Positions 12,395 to 28,964 of a stretch of 64,000 nt of DNA are shown here, piece after piece. Each line of letters begins with the position of its first letter. Position 1 is the stretch's first letter. Under the pieces are notes generated by a model, which had not been told where the DNA came from, did not search any database, and worked only from the letters and a program-made list of their open reading frames with translations. A program made the translations under genes and the position numbers. Origin of the DNA: Rothia similimucilaginosa (GTDB lineage Bacteria > Actinomycetota > Actinomycetes > Actinomycetales > Micrococcaceae); contig NZ_JAOVAM010000001.1 in NCBI RefSeq assembly GCF_029850875.1, positions 124,001 through 188,000 on the forward strand, given 5' to 3'.

Positions 12395-13342
12395 TTACCG
12401 TATGAGCAGTCCCCGAAGATGGGCAATAAATTCCCGCTCTTTCTGAAAAATATCAGCCCAGGTTAGATGCACGATTCTCCAGCCGGCGCGGGTTAGAGCG
12501 CGGTCACGGGCAGCCTCGTAGCGGTCCCTGCCGGGGTGGTCCACGTATTTCTGTTCACCGTCGAACTCGAGAATGAGCCGCGCCTCGGGCCAGGCGAAGT
12601 CCACCCGATAGTTACGCCCCTCGCACGAAATCGGGTACTGCGTCATGGGGGTAGGTAACTCATGTTCCATGAGTAGGCACCGGGTGAGGCTTTCACCAGC
12701 CGACTCGCTGGATGCATCCACCGCCTGTGCCAGGAGGGGCCCTGCGGAACCGCCATAGCCGGTGAGATTCAGCAGAGTCTCGATAACTTCGTGGGGTTCC
12801 ATTAGTCCCCGTCGCATGATGGAGTCGGCGAGGACTACCGCCTCCCGAAAGGGCATAGTGCGAGCGCAATCCTGCAGTGTACGAGCCACCGTTGTCACCA
12901 TGACGTGTGTACCGGGTATTGCGGTCACTGCATTAGGGTCAAAACCTCGCCTATGCCTGCAGATGCGCCCTCTATCGGATGGGCTAGTGGCGGTACTGTA
13001 CACATGCACGATTGAAGGCACGTTGAGTACATCTAGCCCCCAGAGTGCAGCTGCTGATGTGTGTGAGAAAACCCCCTGAAGACCCATGAGGTAGGCGGCA
13101 ATGCACCGTACCGCGAGCCGCTCATCAGGAGTGAGCACCTGAGCATCGCGGGTGTAAATATAGGCTCCTCGCTGAATACGTTGCAATGTTCCTGCCGCTA
13201 TCATCGCACGGATATGCCGGGCTCCAATGCCTCGTGAGTTAAGGATGCGAGGGGTGAGCACGAGAGGGTATAGCTCGGCTGCACGTGTGATTGGGCCTTG
13301 CACGGCTGGGGTTTGGGGATTCAGGATATTTACGGTATTCAT
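12395..13342 (-). CDS. AbiEi-like N-terminal domain plus DUF559 (nuclease-like) protein
   Basis: This protein of about 315 residues starts at the ATG at 13342 (MNTVNILNPQ); an upstream extension to 13435 is non-conserved. Residues about 20-70 form a winged-helix-like AbiEi_4-type segment (HIRAMIAAGTLQRIQRGAYIY), followed by the antitoxin-family core (VFSHTSAAALWGLDVL). Residues about 240-310 match DUF559 with a PD-(D/E)XK-like pattern (YRVDFAWPEARLILEFDGE, then RDRALTRAGWRIVHLTW). In actinobacteria such fusions are annotated as type IV toxin-antitoxin AbiEi-family or endonuclease-like; activity is unproven. No AbiEii-type toxin gene is adjacent. It lies between aspS and hisS with one repeat A copy on each side, which suggests a mobile cassette. 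Confidence 0.75.
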   Translation of the reverse strand: MNTVNILNPQTPAVQGPITRAAELYPLVLTPRILNSRGIGARHIRAMIAAGTLQRIQRGAYIYTRDAQVLTPDERLAVRCIAAYLMGLQGVFSHTSAAALWGLDVLNVPSIVHVYSTATSPSDRGRICRHRRGFDPNAVTAIPGTHVMVTTVARTLQDCARTMPFREAVVLADSIMRRGLMEPHEVIETLLNLTGYGGSAGPLLAQAVDASSESAGESLTRCLLMEHELPTPMTQYPISCEGRNYRVDFAWPEARLILEFDGEQKYVDHPGRDRYEAARDRALTRAGWRIVHLTWADIFQKEREFIAHLRGLLIR

Positions 13343-13392
13343 GGCTTTATCCTGACAGTCTCTGCGAAGTCGTGGAATCTGTTCGTGAAATC

Positions 13393-13436
13393 TGTGGATA
13401 ACTTCGCTGTTTTTAGGGAAATATCCACTATCCACA
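13393..13436. other. inverted DnaA-box-like sequences
   Basis: TGTGGATAA at 13393-13401 is the exact complement of the DnaA consensus TTATCCACA. CTATCCACA at 13428-13436 matches with one mismatch, and together they form an inverted pair (TGTGGATA/TATCCACA). They lie 50-95 nt upstream of the AbiEi/DUF559 start. Confidence 0.4.
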
Positions 13437-15049: not shown

Positions 15050-15342
15050 ACGCGATACTCCTTGACAAAGAACTCGACAACAAAACCCCCGGAACACCTC
15101 CGGGCATATCTACCCATCATACCAACACCCACCCCAGCACAGCACCCACTCCCCCAGCACAACCCGCACAAACCCGCGGCTAGCAGGTTCGCCCACAACA
15201 CAACACGACCAGACACTACTCACACACACCCCACAGAGGCTATGCTTAGGAGGTGCACACGCACACCCAAACGGGTGCCCACCACTGGGAACAGCGCATA
15301 GGCGCCCCACCCCCAGCACCCCCGAGTGAAAGAGTTATAGCG

Positions 15343-16611
15343 GTGACTACCAAACCCGACGACACTGTAAACCTCGAAAAGGCACGCCAGTACGGCCGCG
15401 TCTCCGAGGACGGCCACGTCTTCGTCATTGTCGACGGCGAAGAATACGCAGTAGGCCAGCTGCCCGGCGCCTCCGAAGAAGAAGCACTCAGCTACTTCGC
15501 CCGCAAATTTGAAAATGTCGAGGCGCAGGTTTCCCTGCTCGAATCCCGCCTCGCCAACAACGCCCCTGCCGCAGACCTGCAGAAGGGCATCACCTCCATC
15601 GGCGCACAAATCGGTGTGCGCAACATGGTCGGCGACTACACCGGCCTGCAGAAGCGCCTCATCTCCCTCGCAGAGCAGATCACTGAACTCGGCGAAAAGC
15701 AGCAGCAGGCACGCAGCGAAAACCGTGAACGCGCCCTCGCCGTCCGTGAAGAAATCGTCGCCGAAGCCGAACAGATTGCCGGCCAGGACCCTGACCAGAT
15801 TCACTGGAAGAACTCCCACTCCCGCATGAACGAACTGTTCGAAGCGTGGAAGAAAGCACAGCGCGAAATTCACCTGGCAAAGAGCGTAGAGGACGAGCTG
15901 TGGAAGCGTTTCCGTGCAGCTCGCACCACCTTCGACCGCAACCGCCGCGCGCACTTCTCGCAGCTGGACGACCGCAACGCACGCATCAAGCGTGCCAAGG
16001 AAGAGCTGATTGCGCGTGCGGAAGAGCTGTCCACCTCCACTGACTGGTCTGAGGCTTCCCGCGCATACGGAGATCTGATGCGCGCCTGGAAGCAGGTACC
16101 CCGCGGCCACCGTCGTGAGGACGACAAGCTGTGGGCACGCTTCCGCGCGGCACAGGACGTGTTCTTCAACGCCCGTAACGAAGCCGAAGCAGCGCAGGAC
16201 GCAGTCTACGCCGAAAACCTCAAGGTCAAGGAAGCACTGCTCGAAGAAGCACGCGCACTCCTGCCCGTCGAAGACATTGAGGCTGCAAAGGCAGCCTTCG
16301 ACAAGATCCTGGACCGCTGGGATGCGGCAGGCCGCGTGCCCCGCAACGACCTGCGCCGCGTCGACGGCGAACTGCGCCGTATTCAGGACGAAATCAACGG
16401 CGCCGAAGAGGCAAAGTGGAAGCGCAACGACCCCGCCAAGGCAGCCCGGGCGAACTCCCTGCTCGCACAGATTGAGGACTCCCTCGCCGAGCTGGAGGCA
16501 GAGCTCACCGCAGCTGAGAAGGGCGGCGACTCCAAGAAGATCGCCAAGGCTAAGGAAGCTCTGGAGGCGCGCCGCGCCTGGGCAGCAACCCTGCAGGGCT
16601 TCGGCAACTAG
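15343..16611 (+). CDS. DUF349 domain-containing protein
   Basis: The GTG start at 15343 (then TTKPDDTVNLEKARQYGRV) is preferred because earlier in-frame residues are His/Pro-rich and non-conserved. The protein of about 422 residues is highly charged and almost wholly helical. It contains repeated DUF349 units, each with a conserved W and F/R pattern (NELFEAWKKAQREIHLAKSV, LMRAWKQVPRGHRREDDKLW, KILDRWDAAGRVPRNDLRRV). A C-terminal coiled coil follows (LAQIEDSLAELEAELTAAEK). DUF349 proteins are conserved in actinobacteria beside rel and hisS; their function is unknown. It is transcribed away from hisS and ends in a strong hairpin. Next to it, on the other side, lies the defence-like island. Confidence 0.9.
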   Translation: MTTKPDDTVNLEKARQYGRVSEDGHVFVIVDGEEYAVGQLPGASEEEALSYFARKFENVEAQVSLLESRLANNAPAADLQKGITSIGAQIGVRNMVGDYTGLQKRLISLAEQITELGEKQQQARSENRERALAVREEIVAEAEQIAGQDPDQIHWKNSHSRMNELFEAWKKAQREIHLAKSVEDELWKRFRAARTTFDRNRRAHFSQLDDRNARIKRAKEELIARAEELSTSTDWSEASRAYGDLMRAWKQVPRGHRREDDKLWARFRAAQDVFFNARNEAEAAQDAVYAENLKVKEALLEEARALLPVEDIEAAKAAFDKILDRWDAAGRVPRNDLRRVDGELRRIQDEINGAEEAKWKRNDPAKAARANSLLAQIEDSLAELEAELTAAEKGGDSKKIAKAKEALEARRAWAATLQGFGN

Positions 16612-16686: not shown

Positions 16687-16700
16687 GTCTCATTAACGCC

Positions 16701-16765
16701 GAGAAGCCACATGTGTTTCAAGAAGCTACCATTATCGTGGCTTTTCGAAACGCATGTGGCTTCTG
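16701..16765. repeat. palindromic repeat, family B, left island boundary
   Basis: Arms AGAAGCCACATGTGTTTC... (16702-16730) and ...GAAACGCATGTGGCTTCT (16737-16764) form a near-perfect palindrome of about 28 bp per arm. Each arm carries the submotif AGAAGC-(C/T)AC twice. It is about 85% identical to the element at 26294-26359 at the other end of the four-gene island. Confidence 0.85.
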
Positions 16766-16823
16766 GGAGGGGCATGAAGAGACGATGCATGTACCCGCCA
16801 ATATTCGATGGGGAGGAATCCGG

Positions 16824-18122
16824 CTAAGACTCTTCCCCAGCAATAATCTGCAAGTTCTGAATACCGCCCTGATTCACCATATCCAGAGCTAGAATACGCA
16901 ACGGCGACAGAATATCCTCAATCGGTGCCAGCGGATCGATAAATGTAGACACCGGCTGAAAACGCTTAATGGGTTCAGAGTAGCTTTCATCAGTAAGAAC
17001 CTGCATAAACCCGTCAAAAGTTCTCACCAAGATTGGGCTACTAGTATCGCCTACCAAGCCAACACGAATGCGGAATCCCCCAGAAGTGCGACGTTCTTTC
17101 GCATGTTCCCGAAGAAGAGAGAAGAAATCTATAAGAGCCTTCTCAATGTCGGCTGACATGCAATGATTAGGTTTTCCAACTGGATACTGATTTGAAGCGG
17201 ATGGCTTATTGTATACGCCCCCGAGCTGATACGCTCCCACCAAAGTCCCGTCATCGTGCAGGTATTTGCGATATTTACCAGCAATTGTTTGAGGTAAGTT
17301 CCGAATCACCCACCGGCGCATTCCTTTGACGTGTTCTCCTTGATTCCAAATAAAATTAAATTCAGTCTCGATTTTTTCTTCTTTTGAACAATTTCCTCGC
17401 CGTGAAGCAATGAGATAGGAATAAGCCCACGGGTTAGTATGCTGAATAGCTTTATCTCTATCCACTGAACCCGCAGAGATTTTAGGGGTTACAGGAACGG
17501 CTGCGATTGCTAGGAATACGCCTTGTTCAGGGTTGAGTGCTTCTGTCGCTTCTTCAAAGTACCCCTGTAGAGTCTTTTCCTGCTCAGCCCTACGCTGGAA
17601 ACGCTCACGGAAACCGCGCTCAATATCCCGATAGGTCATCGGTTTTGTATGGGGGCCGTTACGGCGTGGAGCAGAAAAATTATTCTTCTCCTCCCGAGCA
17701 AAATGGGGAGCATCCACCGAATCCGGAATATGCATTAGTACAAGATATTTTTCATCCGGGTTTTCTCCACAAGAAATTTTATTGAACTCCAGGCCTACAA
17801 CCGGAGGGTCAATTTTGGTATAGGCAATATTCAACATCTGCTGTTCTTCTGTAGCAGTCCATTCACAAGGGTGTATAGATCCAGCAATATCGGATGCTCC
17901 TTCGCCCACACCATAAATAATCCATCCGCCGCCGCTATTCGCCATAGCAGCGATATCCTTAGCAATTTCTTGTTTAGATTTATCCTCTTTGAGATTTGGA
18001 ACAACTCGTTTCATGTCAAAGTCCGCAGTCTCTTCCAGGCCTTCCTCAATAGCCTTTTCAATAAGCTCCAGCGTGAGATCCCCAGGCTCCAAACCCAGGG
18101 CACGGTGAATGGGTGTAAACAT
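16824..18122 (-). CDS. AlbA_2 (Schlafen-like) putative ATP-binding protein
   Basis: This 432-residue protein has an AAGGAG site 6 nt before its ATG. Residues about 25-75 carry the AlbA_2/divergent AAA_4 signature: a DFDMK acidic motif, then EIAKDIAAMANSGGGWIIYGV. This domain occurs in Schlafen-like and putative transcriptional or RNA-processing proteins, often in defence loci. The remaining 350 residues match no family I can name; a middle segment (AYSYLIASRRGNCSKEEKIE) and a hydrophobic C-terminal region are visible. It is the last gene of the island. It has visibly lower GC than its neighbours and lies 184 nt past the methyltransferase with a hairpin between, so it may be transcribed separately. 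Its role is inferred from context only. Confidence 0.8.
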   Translation of the reverse strand: MFTPIHRALGLEPGDLTLELIEKAIEEGLEETADFDMKRVVPNLKEDKSKQEIAKDIAAMANSGGGWIIYGVGEGASDIAGSIHPCEWTATEEQQMLNIAYTKIDPPVVGLEFNKISCGENPDEKYLVLMHIPDSVDAPHFAREEKNNFSAPRRNGPHTKPMTYRDIERGFRERFQRRAEQEKTLQGYFEEATEALNPEQGVFLAIAAVPVTPKISAGSVDRDKAIQHTNPWAYSYLIASRRGNCSKEEKIETEFNFIWNQGEHVKGMRRWVIRNLPQTIAGKYRKYLHDDGTLVGAYQLGGVYNKPSASNQYPVGKPNHCMSADIEKALIDFFSLLREHAKERRTSGGFRIRVGLVGDTSSPILVRTFDGFMQVLTDESYSEPIKRFQPVSTFIDPLAPIEDILSPLRILALDMVNQGGIQNLQIIAGEES

Positions 18123-18242
18123 TAGAACTCCTTATCAAAAGAGGAAATACCCATAGAATCTGAGTGCTATCCGCCCTCAAAACTCAGTATAGATTCCTCA
18201 CGAAATTTCTGCCCCTGAATCAGTCAAATTGTGCAGGTATGC

Positions 18243-18293
18243 GGGAGGGCTGCGTGCCCGCCGAGCTTAACTCAGCCAGCACACAGCCCTCCC
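18243..18293 (-). terminator. hairpin between methyltransferase and AlbA_2 genes
   Basis: Arms GGGAGGGCTGCGTG (18243-18256) and CACACAGCCCTCCC (18280-18293) form a 14-bp stem with one mismatch, just past the methyltransferase stop. There is no U-run, so it may be a weak terminator, attenuator or RNA-stability element. Confidence 0.5.
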
Positions 18294-18306
18294 CCCATCG
18301 AATCAG

Positions 18307-21300
18307 CTACTTAGCGGTTCGCCTACGAGCGCGAGGCTTCTTAGCCGGCTTAGCCGCTTCCTCCGCCGCAATCAGCTCCTGATAGCGCTCAAAAAGAATC
18401 TCCAGGCGCTTCGCTTCAGAAGAACAACGACGCGACGCACCAAAAGCGACATCCACCGCAGAATCCAACTCATCATGAGCCGCACGCAACGCCGGATCCA
18501 TCGTCGCCAACGAAGCATACATCTTAGCCAGCGGCACAGGCTCACCCGCACGCTCCTCAATCGCCTCACGCGCAGCCAACACCTTACGGCCCGCAGCAAT
18601 CACCTTACGACGCTGCTCCTCGGAAACCTCGGGAAGCGGAAGGTTATTCCACACGACTGTGTTGGAGAAACTCAGACGAGACTCCAATCGTCCACCGATA
18701 GCCTTCTGCCAAGTAATGAACATAGACGACGAAATAACCGCAAAAAGGAAACTGTCCGGGTCAATAGCTGTATAGACTTTATCCCCCGAAATTACTTCAG
18801 GCGACAAACGTGCCACCGTATAGTACGGACGAAGTTCAGAAACCACACGAGGGATACCTACATAAGCATCTGTGGGCTGATGATTCTCATCAAAAAGGTG
18901 CGGAGTAGCTGCCTTCAGCTGAGTCGCTTTCTTCGTGCTCTGAGATCGCATCTCAGCTACAGCTGCCACACGTGCACTCAGCACCGGGCTAGAGGCGATC
19001 TCTTCTTCGGTTGCGTTCTCCAACCAGAGGCACCAGCGATCCAGCCCCTGTACCAGCTCCTTACCCATACGGAAAGGACGCAGGTAACGAGCCGCCACCG
19101 GGTCAGCGGCAAGCGCCGGGTAGTCCTCCACCTCAACGACTAGATTTCCACCATCTGTCGGTTTTGACCCGAAATACGCCAACGGAAGCTGTGCAGAGAG
19201 AGGGTTAGAACGTTTCTTAACCAGCACATTCGGGCCCTCCACCAGATAGGCATTCAGAGCATGTACCGGGTCCTGCTCTATCGTGCGGCGAGCTGACCAA
19301 TCGTAGTCAAAGACACGCACGCTACGCTTCTCCGGAGCTACCGAACGAGTAAATCCGGTAATCACGCAGTGCACAGCAGCCTTACCGGCAGCTTCCGACT
19401 CCCACGGGAAGGAACGGTACGCAAACTTAATACGCCAGCCATCCCGGAAAAGCGGGCCAAAGAGCGAAGGCACCGGCTGGCCCTGAACAATCGAATTCGT
19501 AGACACGAAGGCAAACTCGCCCGGAACCACTTTCACATCCAGCGCTTCAGCCTGTTCCTGAAGGGTTTTCAGGTAGCGGGCAGCCTTAGCGAACCATGCC
19601 GTCGCAAAATCCAGGTAGCCAGCATAGTCATCACCCCACGCCAAGCGCATACCCTGTTCTTGCTCTTCGTCCTTCTTCGCCTGACCCACGAAGGGCGGGT
19701 TACCCGCAATGTAGACACGCACGCCATCCGCCACATCCTGCGCGGTCACCGGCAGAACCTTTGACCAATCACGGTCCACCTGCTCGCCCGAGGCCTCATC
19801 AACCTCAGTCAGGGCATCGCCCTCAAGAATGTGGGCGCTATGAGCCAGAGGAAGACGCACCGGAGCATAACCAAACTCCTCCATCATCTTCTGGTCCATC
19901 TGACGCTCCACCAAAAACATCGCCGTACGCGCAATCGACGCGGGCCACGGATCAAGCTCCAAACCATAGAAATTATCGATGGTTACCAGCGGCTCAATCG
20001 AGCGGGCACGCTTACGCACGCCCTCACTCACACCAGCCGTACCCACGACCAGCGAACCCAGCTCACTCTCATCGATCTGACCCAGATTACGCAGGCGCAC
20101 CAGAATATCCAGCTCCAGCTTACGCATCTCACGGTAGGCAATAATGATGAAGTTACCGCAACCACACGCCGGATCCATGAAGCGAATATTCGCCAGTTCA
20201 CGGCGCAGGTTACGCAGGCGAGTCGGCTCATCCGACTTATCTACCGCGTTCGTGAACTTATCCCGCAACTCATCCAGGAACAACGGGTTCAAGGTCTTCA
20301 GCACATCCTCCTCCGAGGTATAGTGCTCACCCATCTCACGACGAGTCTTCGCGTCACGCACCGACTGGAACATCGAACCAAAAATAGCCGGAGAAACCTT
20401 CGACCAATCACGCTCCGAAGTCGCCAACAGCTGCTGACGGAACGTCTTCGCCACCGCGCCGCTCATCTCAGCAGGAAGCGGCACAGCATCCGCAAACATG
20501 CCGCCATTCACGTACTTAAAGCCAGACAGATACTCCGGAGCATCCGCCACAGCCGAGGCACCCGAAGGCTTCTTATTCAGCAGGTCGAAGAGCTCATTCA
20601 GGCGCTGCGCCAGATCCGTACCCTCCTGATGAGTACCACGAATCATCCGCTCAAACGAGTTCGAATCCTCAGACTCAGACCACATCTGCGTATCATCAGC
20701 AAACAACAAGAACAGCAGACGCGCCATCACCGTCGAAATCTGAGCCTCCGACATGCCAGCCTTCGCCAACGACTCAAAAAGACCCGCCATCTGATTCGAC
20801 GCAACACGAGTCTCATTCACCGTCTCAACATCAAAACCACGACGCATACGGTCCAAAAGGTCCAGAATCGACACGCCATTCACAATGTCGTCAGAGGTCA
20901 GATACAGCAGAGCACAACGCTCCGACAACGCCTCAACCTGAGCCTCATCCATCACCAACAGCTCATGACGAGTCAAACGCGACGACGAAGCGCTCGGCCA
21001 ACGCCACACCTGACGCGGCGTAAAACCAACACCCTCCTGCACAAAAATGCACAGGCGGTGCATGCTCAACGCACGCAGCGTACGGTCAACCTCAAGCTGC
21101 GAAGTGTTCGACGGAATACGGTCCACACGGCACACCCACACCGGAATGCCCGACTGCGCCGCCACACACTCCACCTTCAACACGCCAGAAGGAACCAGCG
21201 GATCATCCACCTTCACGGTCTGAAACGAGGAATCTCCCAAATCCGACTCATCCCAGCCCAGAGATTCCCTAAAGAAATCACCCAGGCGACCCTCCACCAG

Positions 21301-21348
21301 GTACGAACGCGCCTGGTCCAGGTCATCATCAGGCCACATAACGGCCAT
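18307..21348 (-). CDS. N6-adenine DNA methyltransferase, MmeI/Eco57I-like
   Basis: This 1013-residue protein has an AAGGAG site 7 nt before ATG. The methyltransferase core is clear: GEHYTSEEDVLK at about 340-351, SAM-binding motif I DPACGCGNF at 392-400, YGLELDPWPA at about 461-470, and catalytic motif IV NPPF at 550-553. A target-recognition-like region follows (ARYLRPFRMGKELVQGLDRW, RVVSELRPYYTVARLSPEV). The C-terminus (LDSAVDVAFGASRRCSSEAKRLEILFERYQ in shorter words: an MmeI_C-like helix bundle) closes the protein. The first ~330 residues resemble the N-terminal half of large PglX/Eco57I-type enzymes but show no clear PD-(D/E)XK nuclease triad. It probably marks self DNA by adenine methylation while the PLD-helicase neighbour supplies attack. 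Alternatives are a type IIG restriction enzyme with a divergent nuclease, or a PglX-like component. Confidence 0.85.
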   Translation of the reverse strand: MAVMWPDDDLDQARSYLVEGRLGDFFRESLGWDESDLGDSSFQTVKVDDPLVPSGVLKVECVAAQSGIPVWVCRVDRIPSNTSQLEVDRTLRALSMHRLCIFVQEGVGFTPRQVWRWPSASSSRLTRHELLVMDEAQVEALSERCALLYLTSDDIVNGVSILDLLDRMRRGFDVETVNETRVASNQMAGLFESLAKAGMSEAQISTVMARLLFLLFADDTQMWSESEDSNSFERMIRGTHQEGTDLAQRLNELFDLLNKKPSGASAVADAPEYLSGFKYVNGGMFADAVPLPAEMSGAVAKTFRQQLLATSERDWSKVSPAIFGSMFQSVRDAKTRREMGEHYTSEEDVLKTLNPLFLDELRDKFTNAVDKSDEPTRLRNLRRELANIRFMDPACGCGNFIIIAYREMRKLELDILVRLRNLGQIDESELGSLVVGTAGVSEGVRKRARSIEPLVTIDNFYGLELDPWPASIARTAMFLVERQMDQKMMEEFGYAPVRLPLAHSAHILEGDALTEVDEASGEQVDRDWSKVLPVTAQDVADGVRVYIAGNPPFVGQAKKDEEQEQGMRLAWGDDYAGYLDFATAWFAKAARYLKTLQEQAEALDVKVVPGEFAFVSTNSIVQGQPVPSLFGPLFRDGWRIKFAYRSFPWESEAAGKAAVHCVITGFTRSVAPEKRSVRVFDYDWSARRTIEQDPVHALNAYLVEGPNVLVKKRSNPLSAQLPLAYFGSKPTDGGNLVVEVEDYPALAADPVAARYLRPFRMGKELVQGLDRWCLWLENATEEEIASSPVLSARVAAVAEMRSQSTKKATQLKAATPHLFDENHQPTDAYVGIPRVVSELRPYYTVARLSPEVISGDKVYTAIDPDSFLFAVISSSMFITWQKAIGGRLESRLSFSNTVVWNNLPLPEVSEEQRRKVIAAGRKVLAAREAIEERAGEPVPLAKMYASLATMDPALRAAHDELDSAVDVAFGASRRCSSEAKRLEILFERYQELIAAEEAAKPAKKPRARRRTAK

Positions 21349-21471
21349 AAAAATACTCCTTCACAAGAGAATAGTGAACCAACCGATTCACAGAAAAACT
21401 ACACACAGCCCCGCGGTGCGAGACGCTTCACCGCGCCCCGCACCACAGGCCGTAGCACCCACCGGGGCGCA

Positions 21472-24400
21472 CTAACGCACGGGATTCTTCCCCTCAAAAT
21501 CAGGATTTGCAATCGCCAACGAACACACCACACGTGCCATCTGCATATCAGATTCCTTCACCAACAGCTCATCATCCTGCTGCATGCGCAACAACGCATC
21601 CAACAAAGAGCGGTTATCCGCCTTACGGCGCAACATACGGCGAAGCTCAGACTCAGCCTGACGACGCAACGGGTAATGGTACAGCTTATCCAGCACCTTC
21701 TGCTCCCGCTCCTGCAGTTCCAAAGTATCCAGCGAAGCCGTGCTATCAGCCCCGTAGAAACAACGGAACACCTGACGACGCACACCACGCAGATTACCGT
21801 GCGTCGTACCTTCCTGCCGCAAAACGTACTGAGTCAACTTCTGCTGCAGGTCATAATCCTTCGGGTCAGTTTCCTGACTCGGCGTCGAATACTCAGCATA
21901 GAACAAGCCTAGAGCCTTCGCCGGCGGCACCATGCTCTCCTTCGTGCTGTCCGTAGCCGGGTCATACGACCTCACCGCAAACAGGTCGATCTCAGAGTTC
22001 GTGCGCACATACGACACCATCAAAGCATTATCATCCGCCGGATGAACAGCCGACTCACCGCGCAACGCACGAGTAGCCAAACGCTTATCCTGCATCTTCA
22101 TAATCCGCTCAGCATGCTCAGGACGATTCTTCGCAAAATCAGCCCAACGCTCCGCAGCCTCAGACACCGCGTCGATACCCTCTTCCTCAGGCTCCTCGCT
22201 ATCCAGATTGCCCGAGTAGAAATCCTCAAGAGTACGAGCCGCAGCATCATCAGAAGACATATCAGTAAAGAACGCCTGGTCAGCACCAAAAGCCTCAGCC
22301 GCAGACTCCAAACGCTCACGAATACGCGAACGCAACTTCAAAGTCTTTTCCACCGTCTGATGCGAAATCAGATACACATTCACCTCATGATGAACCTGAC
22401 CTACACGGTCCACACGACCCGCACGCTGAATCAAACGAATAATCGCCCACGGCAAGTCATAGTTCACCACCACGTGAGCATCCTGAAGGTTCTGGCCCTC
22501 AGACAGCACGTCGGTCGCTACCAGCACACGCAGCTCAGGAGCATTCAGAGCAGGAGCCTCCGTGTCAGAGGCCTGCTCCGTCGGCACACGGTTCGACACC
22601 GGCGAGAACCGACGAGCATACGAAGCCGGATCATTAGTATCACCAGCGACCGCAGCCACATTCTCAACGCCCAGCTTCTGCAGGCCCTCAGCAATGTAGT
22701 ACGCAGTGTCCTTATACTCCGTGAACACCAGCACCTTATCATTCGCGTGCTTCTGCTCAATCAAATCACGCAGAGCATGAAGCTTCGAGTCAGTCTCAAC
22801 CTGCCACGTGCCAAAACGCCCCAGCATAGCCTTAATCAGCTCGCTATCATGCTGCAAATCATCATGCAGACGAGACGTAAACACAGTCGACGAAACCCAC
22901 TTCGTCTGAGCCGGCGCACTCTGAACCAAGCTCTCATACATCTGCTCCAGGTTTCCACCCAAATCCTGAACCTGCAGGCCATCCACAGACTCAAAATCAG
23001 CCGCGTCAGAACCCTCCAGACCCAACTGGTCATCCGAGAAACTACCCGTCGGAACACTCAGCTGGTGGTCAATCGCATAAATCCACAACTCATTACGAAT
23101 CAACTGACGAGTCAACGACTGAATAAACGAATAACCCGAAGAGCTCAAACGCTTATACAGGCCCGAAAGCACAAAGCCACGCACATTACCGCGACCCGAA
23201 CGAGCCGCCTCAATAATCGCCTTATCCTCCGGAGAATGGTGCGCATTCGGGTTGTCATACCCAGAAATGTCATAACGCGGCAGACGCAAATCCCTCAAAT
23301 CATCAAGGGTCTGGTCGTCCTCCATAAAACGGGCAGGGTCGTCAGCCTTAAAGCTATGGCTCACCGGCTGCGACACCCAATCCGGGTAATAGAACTTACC
23401 CGTCGACAGCTCCAGGTAGCTGCGCTCCTTCGTCACCAAACCATCAGGAGAAGTCCACATCTCCGTCGGTGCCTGGCGCTTAGTGTACGCACGAGTACGA
23501 CGCACCAGATGGTCACTCATCAACGTGCGCCAATCCTCCGGCTCCTCAGAAATCTCAAAAGCACGCAGAGTCGACAGGTTACCCTCCAGCTTGTCGAACT
23601 TCTTCGAGTACTTCTCCAGACCCTTCTCCGGAATGATGCCCAGGTCAGCATCCTCATCAAGATACAGAGCCAGCTGCGCCTTCACATCACTAAACGACAA
23701 GTTAAACGGGGTCGCAGTCAGAAGCAGAACACGCGACTCATTACGCGAGACATACTCCTTAATAGCACGCCACACCTGCGTATTCTCATTACGCAGATTA
23801 TGCGACTCATCACAAATCACCAGCTGATAACGCGCCAAATCAGGCAACTCAGCAGCCGCCATCGAATAGCGAACCACCTTACCCACCACGTCATACTCGC
23901 TCAGATGCTTATCCCACATCTGCTCCAAGTTCTTCGGGCACAACACCAGAACGCGCATATTCTCTTCGTTCTGCAACATCGACGCCACAGCAATCGCAGT
24001 CAAAGTCTTACCCAGACCCACCACGTCACCCAACATCGTGCCACCACGGCGCATCAAACGGCGCGCCAAAGTATGAGCAGCCGACTTCTGATAGTCCATC
24101 AGCATATGCTCCAAACGCGGAGAAAGCGCATACTCCTGCTCACCAAAACGAGCATCCTCAGACAGCTCGTAGCAGACCTTCATATACACGTCATACGGGT
24201 CAGCCGGCTCAACCCACGACTGATCAATCAAATCAATAATCTCGCGGGTAATATCAAACGACGTACGCTCACGCCACAGCTTCTCAAACCAATTCTTCAA
24301 CTTCGCCGCATGATCCGAATCAGTCAACTCAACATTGAGCTCCAAATTCGTGTGCAAACCCGGACGAGTAAAGTTCGAAGAACCCACAAAACTCATCACC

Positions 24401-24909
24401 GGATGCAGATTGCCAGGCTTCGGAGTGTGCGCAACATACGTCTTACCGTGCAACGCCTGCTTCGTATACACCTTCATCTGCACACGGCCAGACTCCAAAT
24501 GCTCCTTCAAAGTCAACAAAGCCTGACGACGCGCAGAGCTCGTACCACCAGCCATCAGCTGACCACGCAAATGCTGAACCAGCTCATCACGATAACCCGC
24601 ACGCTCATCATTCTTCGGCACCAAAGACACCGACTCGCCGCGCATCTCCGCCTGCGCCTCACGATGCATCTGCTCCGTAATCGAACGCCGCACCATACCC
24701 AGCAGAATACGAGCCACCGGAGTGCCCGGCTCAAACGGAGCCTGACCAATCTCATCAGCGAACTCATCCCACGCGCTTAAGTTCATATAGCCCGTCGCAA
24801 TATCCAGACGATCATAGTACTTCATCGTGCGATGCAGTGCGTCAGCAAGCTTTGCGCCCTTACCCTCCCCCTGCGGAAGGTAACCAAGATTATCGTAAAT
24901 TTCAGCCAT
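21472..24909 (-). CDS. phospholipase D-like / SNF2-family helicase fusion
   Basis: This 1145-residue protein has AAAGG 8 nt before its ATG. The N-terminal PLD-like domain has H154-x-K156 and GSSNFTRPGL at 176-185; the usual HKD aspartate is not at the expected place, as in other helicase-linked PLD domains. The SNF2 core follows: Walker A DVVGLGKT at about 304-311, DESH box at 367-370, and motif III TAT at 398-400. The C-terminal helicase half has VLVFTEYKDTAYYIAEGL, LRVLVATDVLSEGQNLQ and arginine-finger motif QRAGRVDRVGQ. The last ~250 residues have no assignment. Such fusions occur in phage-defence loci with DNA methyltransferases and may translocate on and cut unmodified DNA. It follows the HEPN gene by 44 nt and precedes the methyltransferase by 123 nt. 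Confidence 0.9.
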   Translation of the reverse strand: MAEIYDNLGYLPQGEGKGAKLADALHRTMKYYDRLDIATGYMNLSAWDEFADEIGQAPFEPGTPVARILLGMVRRSITEQMHREAQAEMRGESVSLVPKNDERAGYRDELVQHLRGQLMAGGTSSARRQALLTLKEHLESGRVQMKVYTKQALHGKTYVAHTPKPGNLHPVMSFVGSSNFTRPGLHTNLELNVELTDSDHAAKLKNWFEKLWRERTSFDITREIIDLIDQSWVEPADPYDVYMKVCYELSEDARFGEQEYALSPRLEHMLMDYQKSAAHTLARRLMRRGGTMLGDVVGLGKTLTAIAVASMLQNEENMRVLVLCPKNLEQMWDKHLSEYDVVGKVVRYSMAAAELPDLARYQLVICDESHNLRNENTQVWRAIKEYVSRNESRVLLLTATPFNLSFSDVKAQLALYLDEDADLGIIPEKGLEKYSKKFDKLEGNLSTLRAFEISEEPEDWRTLMSDHLVRRTRAYTKRQAPTEMWTSPDGLVTKERSYLELSTGKFYYPDWVSQPVSHSFKADDPARFMEDDQTLDDLRDLRLPRYDISGYDNPNAHHSPEDKAIIEAARSGRGNVRGFVLSGLYKRLSSSGYSFIQSLTRQLIRNELWIYAIDHQLSVPTGSFSDDQLGLEGSDAADFESVDGLQVQDLGGNLEQMYESLVQSAPAQTKWVSSTVFTSRLHDDLQHDSELIKAMLGRFGTWQVETDSKLHALRDLIEQKHANDKVLVFTEYKDTAYYIAEGLQKLGVENVAAVAGDTNDPASYARRFSPVSNRVPTEQASDTEAPALNAPELRVLVATDVLSEGQNLQDAHVVVNYDLPWAIIRLIQRAGRVDRVGQVHHEVNVYLISHQTVEKTLKLRSRIRERLESAAEAFGADQAFFTDMSSDDAAARTLEDFYSGNLDSEEPEEEGIDAVSEAAERWADFAKNRPEHAERIMKMQDKRLATRALRGESAVHPADDNALMVSYVRTNSEIDLFAVRSYDPATDSTKESMVPPAKALGLFYAEYSTPSQETDPKDYDLQQKLTQYVLRQEGTTHGNLRGVRRQVFRCFYGADSTASLDTLELQEREQKVLDKLYHYPLRRQAESELRRMLRRKADNRSLLDALLRMQQDDELLVKESDMQMARVVCSLAIANPDFEGKNPVR

Positions 24910-24953
24910 GAAAATAACCTTTACATGTGAGTGATTAAAAGTGAGTGAAAAAA

Positions 24954-26177
24954 TTAGGCAGCCAACAGCGCCTTAGCCAGCTCCAACTGCGCCTTAACCT
25001 TCGCAGTACGACGCTTACGGCCAAAAGTCGCCAACACAGCCGACTCAACATCCTGACCCTCATCCATCAGCTCAGGATTCTGCTCATAGAAGCGCCACGC
25101 GTTCGCAATCTCAACCGGGCTAATCTGGTCAAACTCGCGCACCGCACCATCAACCGAAGGACGGAACTCGCCATACTCCTCGCGCGGCTCCTCAACATGC
25201 CACACGAACTTATGCTCATCCACCTGCAGCTCAGGCATGCGGTCAGCCAAACGGATAATCCAGTCGCGGTTCTTCTTCGCCAAACGGCTCACACCAAAGC
25301 ACTGCGCCGCCAAAGTCGCCAAACGATCAGCCTGAACCGGACCCTCAGCAGACACAATCTCTTCAAGAGCAGCAGACATCTGCTCCTTAGAACGCTTGCT
25401 GCGCAGCGAATCAAAAATGTCACGGTCACCCAGCGAAATCGGCTCCCACGGCTCAAACGGGTAACGGCCCTCCCCCACCGCGAGGCACAGCTGAGGGACC
25501 GAGGAATCAGAGACCGGTGCCGGCTGAGCAGTCGAAGCGGCAGGCGCAGGCTGGGCAGGTCGCGGAACCGGTGCCGGACGAGCCGGGCGAGTAAACGCAC
25601 CACGAGGCGCAGACACCTCAGTCTTCACCTCACGGGCAGTCGACGCAGCCTGACGAACCTCCTCATCCAACTCACGACGAACCGGAGCCGCCTCACCAGC
25701 ACCAAACAAATCAGCATGCACACGATTCAGCTGGCCCTCACACCACGCCTGCTGCTCCGACGCACCCAACGCCTCAAAAAGACGAGCCGCCGAATCATAG
25801 ATACGCACCGCGTCATTACGGTCCAAATCAACATAATGCGCGCTCTTATTACGGAAAATACGCAAATCTTGCGCATAAGTACGCACCTTACGAGCACCGT
25901 CAGGTTCAAAAGGGAACCTGTCATTCTGGGGACCCACACCTTCAGTAAACATACGAAGCTGAACCTGAAGGTCCTTCGGGTTATACAGATCAGGATGACG
26001 GAGGCGGTCACGATTCTCATCATGAATCTTCAAAATGATGGTCCAGCCACGCTCTTCAAGAACCTTCTGAGGCATGAACTCCTTCTGAGCCAACAACTCA
26101 GTCAGCAGAGGGTCAAGCTCACGGCTCAGATAATACAGGCACGAGGAAATGTGAGTGTTTGCCTTTTCAATAGACAT
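24954..26177 (-). CDS. Swt1-type HEPN domain protein with DUF3320-like C-terminus
   Basis: I start this protein at the ATG at 26177 (MSIEKANTH, 407 residues). A longer frame to 26225 adds 16 non-conserved residues; no strong ribosome site is seen at either. Residues 1-140 resemble Swt1-type HEPN domains: helix-rich, with the Rx4-6H signature as RNKSAH at 109-114, the motif used by HEPN ribonucleases. A Pro/Ala/Thr-rich linker (about 175-225) leads to a segment like DUF3320 (ALEEIVSAEGPVQADRLATL, CFGVSRLAKKNRDW), a domain seen at the ends of defence-related helicases. It is the first gene of the island operon, so it could be a sensor or an RNase effector. That role is inference; the domain calls are by eye. 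Confidence 0.75.
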   Translation of the reverse strand: MSIEKANTHISSCLYYLSRELDPLLTELLAQKEFMPQKVLEERGWTIILKIHDENRDRLRHPDLYNPKDLQVQLRMFTEGVGPQNDRFPFEPDGARKVRTYAQDLRIFRNKSAHYVDLDRNDAVRIYDSAARLFEALGASEQQAWCEGQLNRVHADLFGAGEAAPVRRELDEEVRQAASTAREVKTEVSAPRGAFTRPARPAPVPRPAQPAPAASTAQPAPVSDSSVPQLCLAVGEGRYPFEPWEPISLGDRDIFDSLRSKRSKEQMSAALEEIVSAEGPVQADRLATLAAQCFGVSRLAKKNRDWIIRLADRMPELQVDEHKFVWHVEEPREEYGEFRPSVDGAVREFDQISPVEIANAWRFYEQNPELMDEGQDVESAVLATFGRKRRTAKVKAQLELAKALLAA

Positions 26178-26293
26178 ATAAAAACCATTTCGTTGTATGT
26201 GCAGCGGCGACCATTGCCACCACATTCATTATGCCTAATGAGAACGACATATGCGTACCGGTTCGTCATAATGGAACCCAACCCGCTTAACAG

Positions 26294-26359
26294 CGAAAAG
26301 CCACATGTGTTTCGAGAAGCCACCAAAGAAGTGGCTTTTCGAAACACCTGTGGCTTCTC
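26294..26359. repeat. palindromic repeat, family B, right island boundary
   Basis: Arms GAAAAGCCACATGTGTTTCG... (26295-26323) and ...GAAACACCTGTGGCTTCTC (26331-26359) form a 29-bp near-perfect palindrome. It is about 85% identical to 16701-16765. It lies about 115 bp upstream of the HEPN start and 35 bp from the rel terminator. Confidence 0.85.
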
Positions 26360-26382
26360 AACGTAAAGACCAGAAAATAGAA

Positions 26383-26486: not shown

Positions 26487-28964
26487 CTACGCCTCCGAGG
26501 GCTTCGCGCCGGTCAGGCGGTACGCCTTGTACACGCCCGTCACGTTACGGACCACGTTCAGCACGTGCTCCAGCATGAAACGGTCACCCAGTTCCAGGGC
26601 AAAGCGGTCCACCACGGTACGATCCTCCGAGGTGTGCACGCGCGCATCCAGGATGTTTACGCCCGACTCAGAGATAGCGCGAATCAGGTCGCTCAGCAGG
26701 CCCTTACGGTCCAGTGCCTCCACCTGAATCTGCACACGGTACGTAGCAGTCGGCGAAGACGCCCACTTGACCGTGGTCACGCGCGGCTCCTCATCAGCGT
26801 TACGCATGTTCGGGCAATCTCGGCGGTGCACCGAAATACCGTTGTAGCGGGTCACAATGCCGATAATGTCATCCGGAGGAACCGGGGTGCAGCAGCGCGC
26901 AATCTTCGTCAACACGCCCTCAGCACCCGGCACAATCACGCCGTTATCGCCAATCGCCTTGCGGGTGGACTTCAGCAGCGTCTCGTCAAAGTCGTTGACC
27001 TCAACCTCAGGCGCCGGCTCATCGCCGCGATGCACCTCAACCAGGGTTTCGATGACCTGCTTCGGCGCAATCTCATGCTCACCAATCGCACGGTACAGCG
27101 ACGCCACATCATTCTTATGCAGCAGCTGAGCCACCTGAGTCATAATCTCCGGGCTCATCATCTTCTGCAACGGCAACTCACTGTTACGCATGCTCTTCGT
27201 CAGCATCTCGCGGCCGGCGAGCAGCGCCTCCAGGCGGCGTTCCTTCGCAAAATACTGACGAATCTTCGTGCGAGCGCGTGAGGAGCGAACGAACTTCAGC
27301 CAGTCCTCACTGGGGCCAGCATCCTCGTTCTTCGTGGTCATAATTTCCACGGTGGCGCCGGTGGGCAGGACCGTGTGCAGCGGTACCAGGCGGCCGTTGA
27401 CCTTCGCGCCGACGGTGCGGTCGCCGACCTCGCTGTGGATGGCATAGGCAAAGTCCACGGGGGTGGAGCCGTTGGGCAGGGCGATTGCTTCGCCGTTGGG
27501 GGTGAGTACGACGATTTCGTCGGTGTCGAGGGTGTCAGCCAGCGACTCGTAGAACTTCTCCGACTCGGGGTTGGAGTTCGAAATTTCGGCGATGGACTGC
27601 AGGATGCCGACGTTCATCATCGCCGAGGTCTGGGTGCCCGGCTCCTTCGGGTCCTTCGCGGGCGCGCCGCCACGAGCTGCGACCTTCTCACCGCGCGACG
27701 CCGCCTTGTAGCGCCAGTGCGCCGCCACACCGTACTCGGCCTCTTCATGCATCTTATAGGTGCGAATCTGAATTTCAAGCGGCAGGTTACCCGGACCGTA
27801 CACAGTCAAATGCAACGACTGGTAGTTATTGTTCTTCGGGTTCTTAATGTAGTCCTTGAAACGGCCGGTCATCGACGGCCACAAGGACAGCACGTGACCG
27901 AGCACGGTGTAGCACTCTGCCTCTTCCTCAACCATGATACGCACGGCGAGAATGTCATTAATCTCGTCGAAGCTGCGGCCCTTCGTCTTCATCTTCTGAT
28001 GAATCGAATAGTAGTGCTTGGGGCGGCCCGTCACGGTCGCCTCAATACCGACCTGCGCCAGGCGCTCCTTAATCTTGGTGCGCGCCTCGTTCAGGAACTT
28101 TTCGAGGGCGGGGGTGCGTTCGCCGACCATGCGCACCATTTCGGCGTAAATTTCCGGGCTCATAGCGGCGAAGGACAGGTCCTCCAGCTCCCACTTGATC
28201 GTGTTCAGGCCCAGGCGGTGCGCGAGCGGCGCGTAAATCTTTAGGGTCTCTTCTGCCTTCTTCGCGGCAGAAGCCTGCGGCACAAAACGCCAGGTGCGGG
28301 CGTTGTGCAGGCGGTCGGCAAGCTTGATGAGCAGCACACGGATGTCCTTGCTCATAGACAGCACGAGCTTACGAATCGTCTCAATGGAGGCGTTCTCGCC
28401 GTAGGTCATCTTGTCTAGCTTGGTCACGCCGTCGACCAGGTAGGCGACCTCCTCACCGAACTCGTCAGTAAGCTGCTCCATCGTGTAGTCGGTGTCTTCC
28501 ACCGTGTCATGTAGCAGGCCAGCGGCGAGCACGGGGCCGGTCGCGCCCATCTCAGCAAGAATCGCGGTCACAGCAACCGGATGGGTGATGTACGGGTCGC
28601 CACTCTTACGCTTCTGACCCTCGTGGCAGCGGTTCGCCACCTCGTAGGCGCGCTGCAGCACCTGGATGTCTTCGTCCGGGTGGTAGCGGCGCACGGCACG
28701 CACGACCGGCGCAATCATCGGGGAGAAACGGATAGTGCCGCCGTGCGAATCGGGCGCCTCTATCTTGCCGCTGCGGCTACCGAATACCAGGCGGTTCGGC
28801 ACACGTCCGCCAGCAGCCATGACGCGGTGCGAGCCGCGTTTCTTCTTTGCGTCAGACGAATCAGTTTCAGGCAGAGGAATCGGGCCAGCGGGCCGAACCG
28901 CGGGCTTCTCGGCGGTCCCTGCAGATTTCTCAGCGTTGATGTTCACGGCAGGTTCTGCACTCAT
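26487..28964 (-). CDS. rel: bifunctional (p)ppGpp synthetase/hydrolase, RelA/SpoT family
   Basis: This 825-residue stringent-response enzyme makes and degrades (p)ppGpp on ribosomes during amino-acid starvation. AAAGGAG lies 6 nt before the ATG. A Pro/Ala-rich N-terminal extension of about 75 residues precedes the HD hydrolase domain (HDTVEDT at 152-158). The synthetase domain follows (YYSIHQKMKTKGRSFDEIND region), then TGS (about 490-550, VVLTPNGEAIALPNGSTPVDF) and a C-terminal ACT domain (about 745-815). Both catalytic domains look intact, as expected for the single long Rel of actinobacteria. It follows the secD-secF unit; the defence-like island begins just downstream. Confidence 0.97.
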   Translation of the reverse strand: MSAEPAVNINAEKSAGTAEKPAVRPAGPIPLPETDSSDAKKKRGSHRVMAAGGRVPNRLVFGSRSGKIEAPDSHGGTIRFSPMIAPVVRAVRRYHPDEDIQVLQRAYEVANRCHEGQKRKSGDPYITHPVAVTAILAEMGATGPVLAAGLLHDTVEDTDYTMEQLTDEFGEEVAYLVDGVTKLDKMTYGENASIETIRKLVLSMSKDIRVLLIKLADRLHNARTWRFVPQASAAKKAEETLKIYAPLAHRLGLNTIKWELEDLSFAAMSPEIYAEMVRMVGERTPALEKFLNEARTKIKERLAQVGIEATVTGRPKHYYSIHQKMKTKGRSFDEINDILAVRIMVEEEAECYTVLGHVLSLWPSMTGRFKDYIKNPKNNNYQSLHLTVYGPGNLPLEIQIRTYKMHEEAEYGVAAHWRYKAASRGEKVAARGGAPAKDPKEPGTQTSAMMNVGILQSIAEISNSNPESEKFYESLADTLDTDEIVVLTPNGEAIALPNGSTPVDFAYAIHSEVGDRTVGAKVNGRLVPLHTVLPTGATVEIMTTKNEDAGPSEDWLKFVRSSRARTKIRQYFAKERRLEALLAGREMLTKSMRNSELPLQKMMSPEIMTQVAQLLHKNDVASLYRAIGEHEIAPKQVIETLVEVHRGDEPAPEVEVNDFDETLLKSTRKAIGDNGVIVPGAEGVLTKIARCCTPVPPDDIIGIVTRYNGISVHRRDCPNMRNADEEPRVTTVKWASSPTATYRVQIQVEALDRKGLLSDLIRAISESGVNILDARVHTSEDRTVVDRFALELGDRFMLEHVLNVVRNVTGVYKAYRLTGAKPSEA

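Follow-up and report, generated by a model that had tools for sequence, protein, structure and literature searches.

MmeI carries a nuclease in the same polypeptide chain as its methyltransferase. Restriction-modification (RM) systems of the CglI/NgoAVII/BceSIV type, as portrayed in the parts of PMC4267653 drawn on here, use an ATPase-driven PLD nuclease and a methyltransferase acting at an asymmetric site, and fused PLD-ATPase homologues are also mentioned there (citing Xu et al. 2012). An HKD/PLD-SNF2 helicase fusion accompanied by an N6-adenine methyltransferase characterizes Type-2 BREX-related systems and Hma; in passages of PMC12839542, the former comprise an HKD-SNF2 helicase, an N6 methyltransferase, DUF499, and DUF3780, and HEPN also occurs there, fused to the DUF499 ATPase; an excerpt of PMC3710099 places this HEPN in the Swt1 family. 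The same excerpt describes the HEPN RNase PrrC, encoded beside the Type Ic RM system PrrI as a second line of defence, and puts forward the idea that RM systems keep their associated HEPN domains in check, as with PrrC, until RM is blocked. Here, we compare these systems with a four-gene island in a 64,000-nucleotide (nt) stretch of the Rothia similimucilaginosa genome (NZ_JAOVAM010000001.1, positions 124,001–188,000; hereafter the window). The island consists of four co-oriented minus-strand genes in the gap between a DUF349 gene and rel, between two matching palindromes, and encodes an HEPN protein, a PLD-SNF2 helicase, an N6-adenine methyltransferase, and an AlbA_2 protein. The open reading frame (ORF) list and Pfam analyses agree with the order and domain names in an original prediction made from the sequence alone, and identify the methyltransferase more precisely as MmeI-type. 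That prediction also treated the four genes as one undescribed system, which holds only in part, because the foursome was found in two of 35 genus genomes and in none of the 80 best helicase loci outside the genus. The neighbourhood survey that it had itself named as the refuting test found that the four genes rarely co-occur and that HEPN or AlbA_2 attach separately and in varying positions. Judged from gene neighbourhoods, the conserved unit of the island is the helicase-methyltransferase pair, to which HEPN and AlbA_2 have been added.

When genome contigs were scanned with an alignment of helicases, 253 relatives were confirmed, and the best 80 of them were kept for the neighbourhood counts. 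Genes in the retrieved loci are longest-ORF calls made with a custom script, and the methyltransferase class used for counting is a single-linkage BLAST cluster. An ORF of this cluster lies within 1.3 kb downstream of the helicase on the same strand in 56 of the 80 loci (gaps of -34 to 1021 nt) and upstream in another 14. Ten loci fall in neither class, seven of which have 2.1 kb of contig or less after the helicase; among the ten, L086 does carry an ORF of the same cluster after the helicase that was removed by an overlap filter, and L075 and L089 remain. The Pfam check of methyltransferases covered 39 of the 56 downstream members plus those of the window, L204, L012, L025, and L209, that is, 44 proteins, and of the 14 upstream members L077 only; the methyltransferase of L046 is a fragment cut by the contig end. 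In the 32 closest actinobacterial loci (L037–L067 and L078) the methyltransferase follows downstream without exception (gaps of -28 to +2 nt), and phmmer matches every one of these proteins to the window methyltransferase. The record titles of helicase relatives name Actinomycetota, Chloroflexota, Cyanobacteriota, Pseudomonadota, and others, including many metagenome-assembled genomes, and the pair is also borne on plasmids, for example in Rhodococcus pyridinivorans, R. ruber, and R. opacus. Of 80 helicase loci kept from IMG/VR, five are near full length (32–36% identity) and three of these have a recognizable methyltransferase beside the helicase; phage genome records searched with the helicase at 1e-20 gave no match. 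The pair is a widespread two-gene RM module that apparently has no established name. In the open-licence PMC literature (a scope that leaves subscription papers and REBASE outside) we found no description of a two-gene system made of a PLD-SNF2 protein and an MmeI-type methyltransferase.

Both partners have the features expected of such a module. The methyltransferase matches MmeI_Mtase (1.4e-74), MmeI_TRD (4.3e-60), MmeI_hel, and MmeI_C, and its catalytic motifs DPACGCGNF (392) and NPPF (550) are intact. It thus shares with MmeI (PDB 5hr4) the methyltransferase, target-recognition domain (TRD), helical spacer, and C-terminal domains. Structural alignments with MmeI give 35–37% identity, model residues outside 175–976 being barely tested by them. 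In contrast to MmeI, the island protein becomes similar only past the MmeI nuclease domain, shows no (D/E)xK conservation in its N-terminal fold, and is encoded next to a PLD-helicase gene. Residues 20–131 have a predicted alpha-beta-beta-beta-alpha-beta order like that of the PD-(D/E)xK fold; in all 22 close relatives, however, there is no acidic residue at 68–71 and no lysine at 73, so that on sequence the active PD-(D/E)xK nuclease typical of Type IIG enzymes and MmeI was not found in this chain. All but one of the 44 Pfam-scanned methyltransferases match MmeI_Mtase, and the MmeI nuclease family is not among the families found in them. The nuclease-like fold is thus probably dead, and, because the match to MmeI starts past the nuclease domain and no (D/E)xK is conserved, the PLD-helicase is the likely nuclease. 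This protein matches PLDc_2 (2.2e-12), SNF2-rel_dom (2.2e-14), and Helicase_C (1e-17), and its motif H154-x-K156 ... G-S-S-N179 is invariant in 33 of 33 aligned sequences; with the motif intact and the pair conserved, a nuclease gene is predicted to be encoded together with the methyltransferase. Its predicted structure is of intermediate confidence (pLDDT 77); SNF2-type and other superfamily 2 motors make up the 50 listed fold matches. Because it matches the PADLOC 'HKD+Snf2' model C3a139 (1.3e-47, partial) and an NCBIfam phospholipase D-like anti-phage protein (1.7e-49, 168.9 bits; cut-off 1100), the helicase type is already catalogued. In the CglI/NgoAVII class the PLD nuclease goes with a B3-like DNA-binding domain; no B3 family is among the 10 Pfam matches of the island, although the C-terminal 250 residues of the helicase have no assigned family.

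The HEPN protein matches HEPN_Swt1 (5.6e-10) and DUF3320 (5.7e-7), the latter overlapping a winged helix-turn-helix (wHTH) according to the excerpt of PMC3710099. It contains the Rx4-6H active-site motif expected of PrrC-like HEPN RNases, in the form R125-N126-x3-H130 (RNKSAH at 125), and RNxxxH is kept in seven of seven aligned stand-alone HEPN-DUF3320 proteins. Residues 166–405 match positions 1696–1903 of the 1903-residue NCBIfam ProA model (2e-19, 68.6 bits; cut-off 1500), and PADLOC PDC-S37 matches the C-terminus only (3.2e-10). The Swt1-type HEPN and DUF3320 are shared with the giant HEPN-helicase-Vsr-wHTH proteins (MTES_1575, ProA) covered by that excerpt; the island protein, however, has 423 rather than about 1900 amino acids (aa) and no helicase or restriction endonuclease middle. 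PrrC, for its part, has an ABC-ATPase and hsdMSR neighbours, whereas the island has HEPN_Swt1-DUF3320 beside a PLD-helicase/MmeI-type pair, where guarding would be by analogy. Outside the genus, HEPN genes lie beside PLD-helicase/methyltransferase modules in three actinobacterial records, two of them from Rhodococcus: the HEPN gene is divergent from the pair in R. globerulus (L044) and on R. erythropolis plasmid pCRE138 (L206), and on Paenarthrobacter plasmid pTC1 (L205) it starts where the PLD-helicase gene ends. Three records of the plasmid collection match HEPN over at least 80% of the query, namely L205 and L206, which are beside modules, and L207. Because the HEPN proteins of L044 and L206 are alike while their helicases differ in distance from that of the window (7e-268 vs. 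6e-56), HEPN seems to move between modules. A scan of IMG/VR with the HEPN alignment gave 73 pattern matches, none of which was confirmed. HEPN_Swt1 is also N-terminal in longer proteins near helicase genes: two Rhodococcus plasmids (L225 and L226) encode large Swt1-HEPN proteins of 1121–1136 aa near helicase-related genes, and L226, where genes for DUF1156 and DUF262 proteins are also present, resembles BREX-related/Hma loci.

The AlbA_2 protein matches SLFN_AlbA_2 (3.8e-13) and keeps E31-x4-D36-x-K38, which we take to be the Schlafen nuclease residues, in eight of eight aligned sequences; compared with PDB sequences it had no match at 0.1. On Gordonia terrae plasmid pPAE01 (L209), a helicase gene, a methyltransferase gene, and the gene for a relative of AlbA_2 follow one another, each overlapping the next by 4 nt.

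The island of the window and that of the congener G021 were compared by identity and by synonymous (dS) and nonsynonymous (dN) divergence in segments. The helicases are 96.6% identical with a dS of 0.11–0.15, rel has a dS of 0.22–0.25, and for most of the backbone dS is 0.06–0.22. The TRD (705–907), by contrast, is only 63.5% identical, whereas the remainder of the methyltransferase reaches 93.6%, and dS is 1.54 and dN 0.355 in residues 761–890, compared with a dS of 0.06 in residues 1–200; in residues 371–760, before the variable block, dS is raised to 0.49–0.59. Similarly, HEPN residues 31–160 have a dS of 0.75 and a dN of 0.35, compared with a dS of 0.16 in residues 246–423, and past residue 165 of AlbA_2 dS is raised to 0.37–0.40. 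This blockwise synonymous divergence goes beyond selection alone and marks exchanged TRD and HEPN blocks. Exchange of the TRD is expected of RM systems under selection for new sites. Its coincidence with HEPN exchange suggests that the specificity is switched and that HEPN serves as a PrrC-like back-up, and HEPN exchange within the same operon, seen as sequence divergence in one genome pair, is the most interesting single result and seemingly new.

We therefore read the island as an RM cassette with an ATP-dependent two-component core, to which HEPN adds a PrrC-like second line and AlbA_2 an optional component, and consider this explanation probable as a whole. The methyltransferase would use its TRD to recognize a DNA site that is short and probably asymmetric, and would methylate adenine in the host genome. 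On unmethylated DNA it would recruit or license the PLD-SNF2 protein, which would translocate by ATP hydrolysis and cut when two chains join their single HxK half-sites. HEPN_Swt1-DUF3320 may be a latent RNase that is restrained by the RM complex or tethered through its wHTH part; should a phage block restriction, it would act as PrrC does with PrrI, by translation arrest or cell suicide. The AlbA_2 protein may be a further RNase or a sensor. The defence character proposed in the original prediction is supported, with methylation as the likely self mark and the PLD-helicase as the likely, predicted attacker of DNA. Broadly defined, the RM systems include the island, and by analogy it would work like CglI/NgoAVII-type ATP-dependent RM with an MmeI recognition module and a motor-nuclease layout like that of BREX-related systems.

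A relative of the pair offers a glimpse of the modification mark. On Synechocystis plasmid pSYSX (L204), 675 nt separate a helicase relative from a downstream gene for a DNA methyltransferase of 1100 aa. Positions 1–105000 of the 106004 contain two annotated DNA methyltransferases, in a gene table that is possibly incomplete; the second belongs to class I and is followed by one hypothetical gene and then a gene for a restriction subunit S. M.Ssp6803IV and V are located on pSYSX according to a section of PMC6604393, and in part of PMC7296061 M.Ssp6803V is linked to type I genes and M.Ssp6803IV is assigned GA(m6A)GGC, methylated at 1446 of 1451 sites in the wild type. By elimination, the helicase-linked enzyme would be M.Ssp6803IV, whose motif is in keeping with an asymmetric adenine mark on one strand. 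With only about 20% identity to the window methyltransferase, this enzyme speaks for the class rather than for the site. In L204 a small gene and a VapC/PIN gene separate the two partners, another RNase-type addition to the pair.

Several observations weigh against the RM cassette with a guarding HEPN. The HEPN proteins of L044 and L206 are close to each other, and their recurrences are not fully independent; the HEPN gene varies in position and orientation (upstream, downstream, or divergent) and stands alone, without a helicase match, in L003 (about 4 kb examined) and in L207 (about 21 kb examined, with Shedu and a type II RM system as neighbours). Among nine AlbA_2 relatives outside the genus with surroundings examined (L209–L213 and L221–L224), eight are away from the pair in the DNA covered, L209 being the one that has it. 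The intergenic distances in the island are 44 nt (HEPN-helicase), 123 nt (helicase-methyltransferase), and 184 nt (methyltransferase-AlbA_2); the latter two gaps, which contain G+C-rich hairpins, are looser than the spacing in relatives, where genes commonly overlap by 4 nt, and therefore AlbA_2 may be transcribed apart. Block exchange is known from one pair of genomes. Residues 15–176 of the methyltransferase match the start of a second PADLOC Type IIG profile (6.6e-6), and such profile names may leave room for a nuclease in its N-terminus, where the reading of a dead, endonuclease-like fold comes from predicted secondary-structure order and column conservation, without a fold match. No restriction or phage assay for any island member was found in the open-licence PMC literature.

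Some of these points suit defence-gene aggregation, in which the pair would be an RM system complete in itself, with HEPN and AlbA_2 as separate mobile defence genes that share the palindrome-bounded cassette by chance and without functional coupling. In 19 of the 32 close loci, five of them cut downstream, no further co-directional gene lies within 120 nt of the pair; neighbours vary from locus to locus (e.g., GmrSD, AAA_5, and HATPase families), and AlbA_2 relatives mostly lack the pair. However, the three records outside the genus in which HEPN-DUF3320 adjoins a module, and the fact that the HEPN domain is an exchanged block like the TRD, argue against it, and we regard aggregation as a serious possibility rather than a probable explanation. 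A fixed system requiring all four proteins accounts for the conservation of gene set, order, and near-identical gaps at the same site in the two congeners, but none of the 80 outside loci has all four: phmmer at 1e-3 finds AlbA_2 in none and HEPN near full length in L044 and partially at the edge of L050. Because many loci are cut by contig ends, these absences give lower bounds on presence, and we consider a fixed system unlikely. It is more improbable still that the methyltransferase is a self-sufficient Type IIG enzyme and the helicase an unrelated neighbour; the PADLOC REase_MTase_IIG profile matches residues 150–995 strongly (3.7e-249), in addition to the second profile noted above, but the lack of a conserved (D/E)xK and of the MmeI nuclease family, together with helicase-methyltransferase adjacency across phyla, speaks against it, and the PADLOC label 'Type IIG' overlooks the helicase partner.

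As had been predicted, the partner sets of DISARM and BREX are not among the four genes. DISARM class 1 (DrmD, DrmMI, DrmC, DrmA, and DrmB) shares with the island an SNF2 helicase, an adenine methyltransferase, and PLD activity, with partial model matches; the island differs in lacking DrmA and DrmB and in having PLD fused to the helicase, and membership was rejected. BREX was rejected since PglZ and BrxC are absent from the four genes (genome-wide, PglZ was below the cut-off and BrxC was not searched), and BREX-related Type-2/Hma membership since DUF499 had no match in the source genome, in a search whose control was positive in one of 14 genomes (Thermotoga maritima); DUF3780 and DUF1156 have no Pfam match in the island. 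PADLOC profile matches, compared at the profile level without system rules, do not assign the gene set to one system. The source genome has one MZB match, in a 943-aa ORF on another contig (C7), which need not be a DISARM gene because MZB is also found in eight of 14 control genomes. A stripped BREX-related or DISARM-like system borrowing DUF499 or DrmA/DrmB from elsewhere in the genome, for which the partial DrmD, DrmMI, and HmaA scores of helicase and methyltransferase and the MZB ORF might be cited, is hardly credible given those searches.

The genomic setting of the island is variable. It is flanked by 26487–28964 (minus), presumably rel, and 15253–16611 (plus), presumably a DUF349 gene followed by what we take to be hisS, names assigned by reading the translations. 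The DUF349 gene was found in all 35 genus genomes; by helicase presence, the island is in two of these and two of the 59 genomes searched overall, the gene set being confirmed in G021. Congeners G010 and G001 have no sizeable insert here, their DUF349 and rel genes being direct neighbours (L302 and L303). At the same site G009 has a palindrome, two ORFs, the larger Rce1-like, and a second palindrome, and G021 (L284) has the same four genes between palindromes and then three further palindrome-separated blocks up to DUF349, four in a row from rel. On this comparison of gene order, the island is an insertion at a variable site. Its features are listed in table 1.

Table 1. Features of the island (window coordinates).
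Feature	Position	Strand	Remarks
HEPN_Swt1+DUF3320 gene, first of set	24954–26225	minus	423 aa; predicted RNase, C-terminal wHTH-like part
PLD-SNF2 helicase gene	21472–24909	minus	1145 aa; predicted ATP-driven translocase and nuclease
MmeI-family N6-adenine methyltransferase gene with TRD	18307–21348	minus	1013 aa
SLFN_AlbA_2 gene, accessory	16824–18122	minus	432 aa
HEPN domain, residues 33–154	25764–26129	minus	Inside block exchanged between two congeners
PLD half-site H154-x-K156 ... G-S-S-N179	24373–24450	minus	Alignment of 33 sequences
Methyltransferase N-terminal domain, residues 20–131	20956–21291	minus	Predicted secondary structure
Variable TRD block of methyltransferase, residues 761–890	18679–19068	minus	dS/dN between congeners
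G+C-rich hairpin, 23-bp arms, methyltransferase/AlbA_2 intergene	18243–18293		Possible terminator or attenuator
Left palindromic repeat, island edge on DUF349 side	16693–16767		
Right palindromic repeat, island edge on rel side	26286–26368		

The two palindromes match each other, as predicted (83% identity over 72 nt, each self-complementary), but are not unique to the island. An 18-mer from the repeat has four matches in the window at up to two mismatches, against 0.05 expected, and the family occupies four places in the source genome and 9 to 14 (listed matches merged) in each of three congeners; uniqueness was thus rejected in favour of a small dispersed family, which was found in four of the 35 genus genomes. 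The sites are clustered, with eight of 13 gaps below 10 kb in G021 (0.77 expected at random) and five of 13 in G009 (0.76 expected). Some palindrome-bounded blocks hold restriction genes: G034 has Type I R and S genes in such blocks, G009 has a gene for a Type IV-like PLD-helicase enzyme, and G021 has genes for a MutH-type restriction enzyme, a C5-methyltransferase, and HNH proteins (with matching ORF sizes in G034). Others hold ordinary or unassigned genes, such as those for DUF6318 and Cons_hypoth698 proteins. Because both kinds occur, the palindromes mark variable slots that often, not always, carry restriction genes. This lineage-specific repeat of about 75 bp, which may be a terminator, a mobile element, or a recombination site, brackets variable blocks in G021 (L284), G009 (L288 and L292), and G034 (L294 and L295). 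In L284 (10012–14005), candidate cassette genes of 694 and 543 aa lie between palindromes and directly adjoin the AlbA_2 gene; they matched nothing in PADLOC and, above the cut-off, nothing in Pfam.

Elsewhere in the window, a 584-aa ORF at 48668–50422 looks acquired; its G+C content is 35–46% compared with about 60% nearby, and it has a weak Pentapeptide_3 match below the cut-off. Near hisS, 12395–13435 encodes a 346-aa protein that matches DUF559 over the cut-off and MTES_1575 and AbiEi_4 weakly, below it, and is possibly a further conflict gene.

Rather tentatively, we suggest that these loci represent a widespread, unnamed RM class composed of a PLD-SNF2 translocase and an MmeI-type methyltransferase whose nuclease fold is dead, in which an HEPN-wHTH RNase has repeatedly been captured as a guard in actinobacteria, HEPN and TRD are exchanged in parallel, and modules move as cassettes delimited by a lineage-specific palindrome. 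If so, site specificity and the suicide arm would diversify together. The congener pair with near-identical helicases and different TRD and HEPN blocks is a natural swap experiment. If the reading as an RM cassette is right, common gene pairs now annotated separately as 'Type IIG enzyme' or 'DNA methyltransferase' and 'helicase-related protein' would be one ATP-dependent RM system with an unusual division of labour between recognition, methylation, and cutting, and the HEPN add-on would make it a compact, testable RM system with a built-in suicide back-up beyond PrrC.

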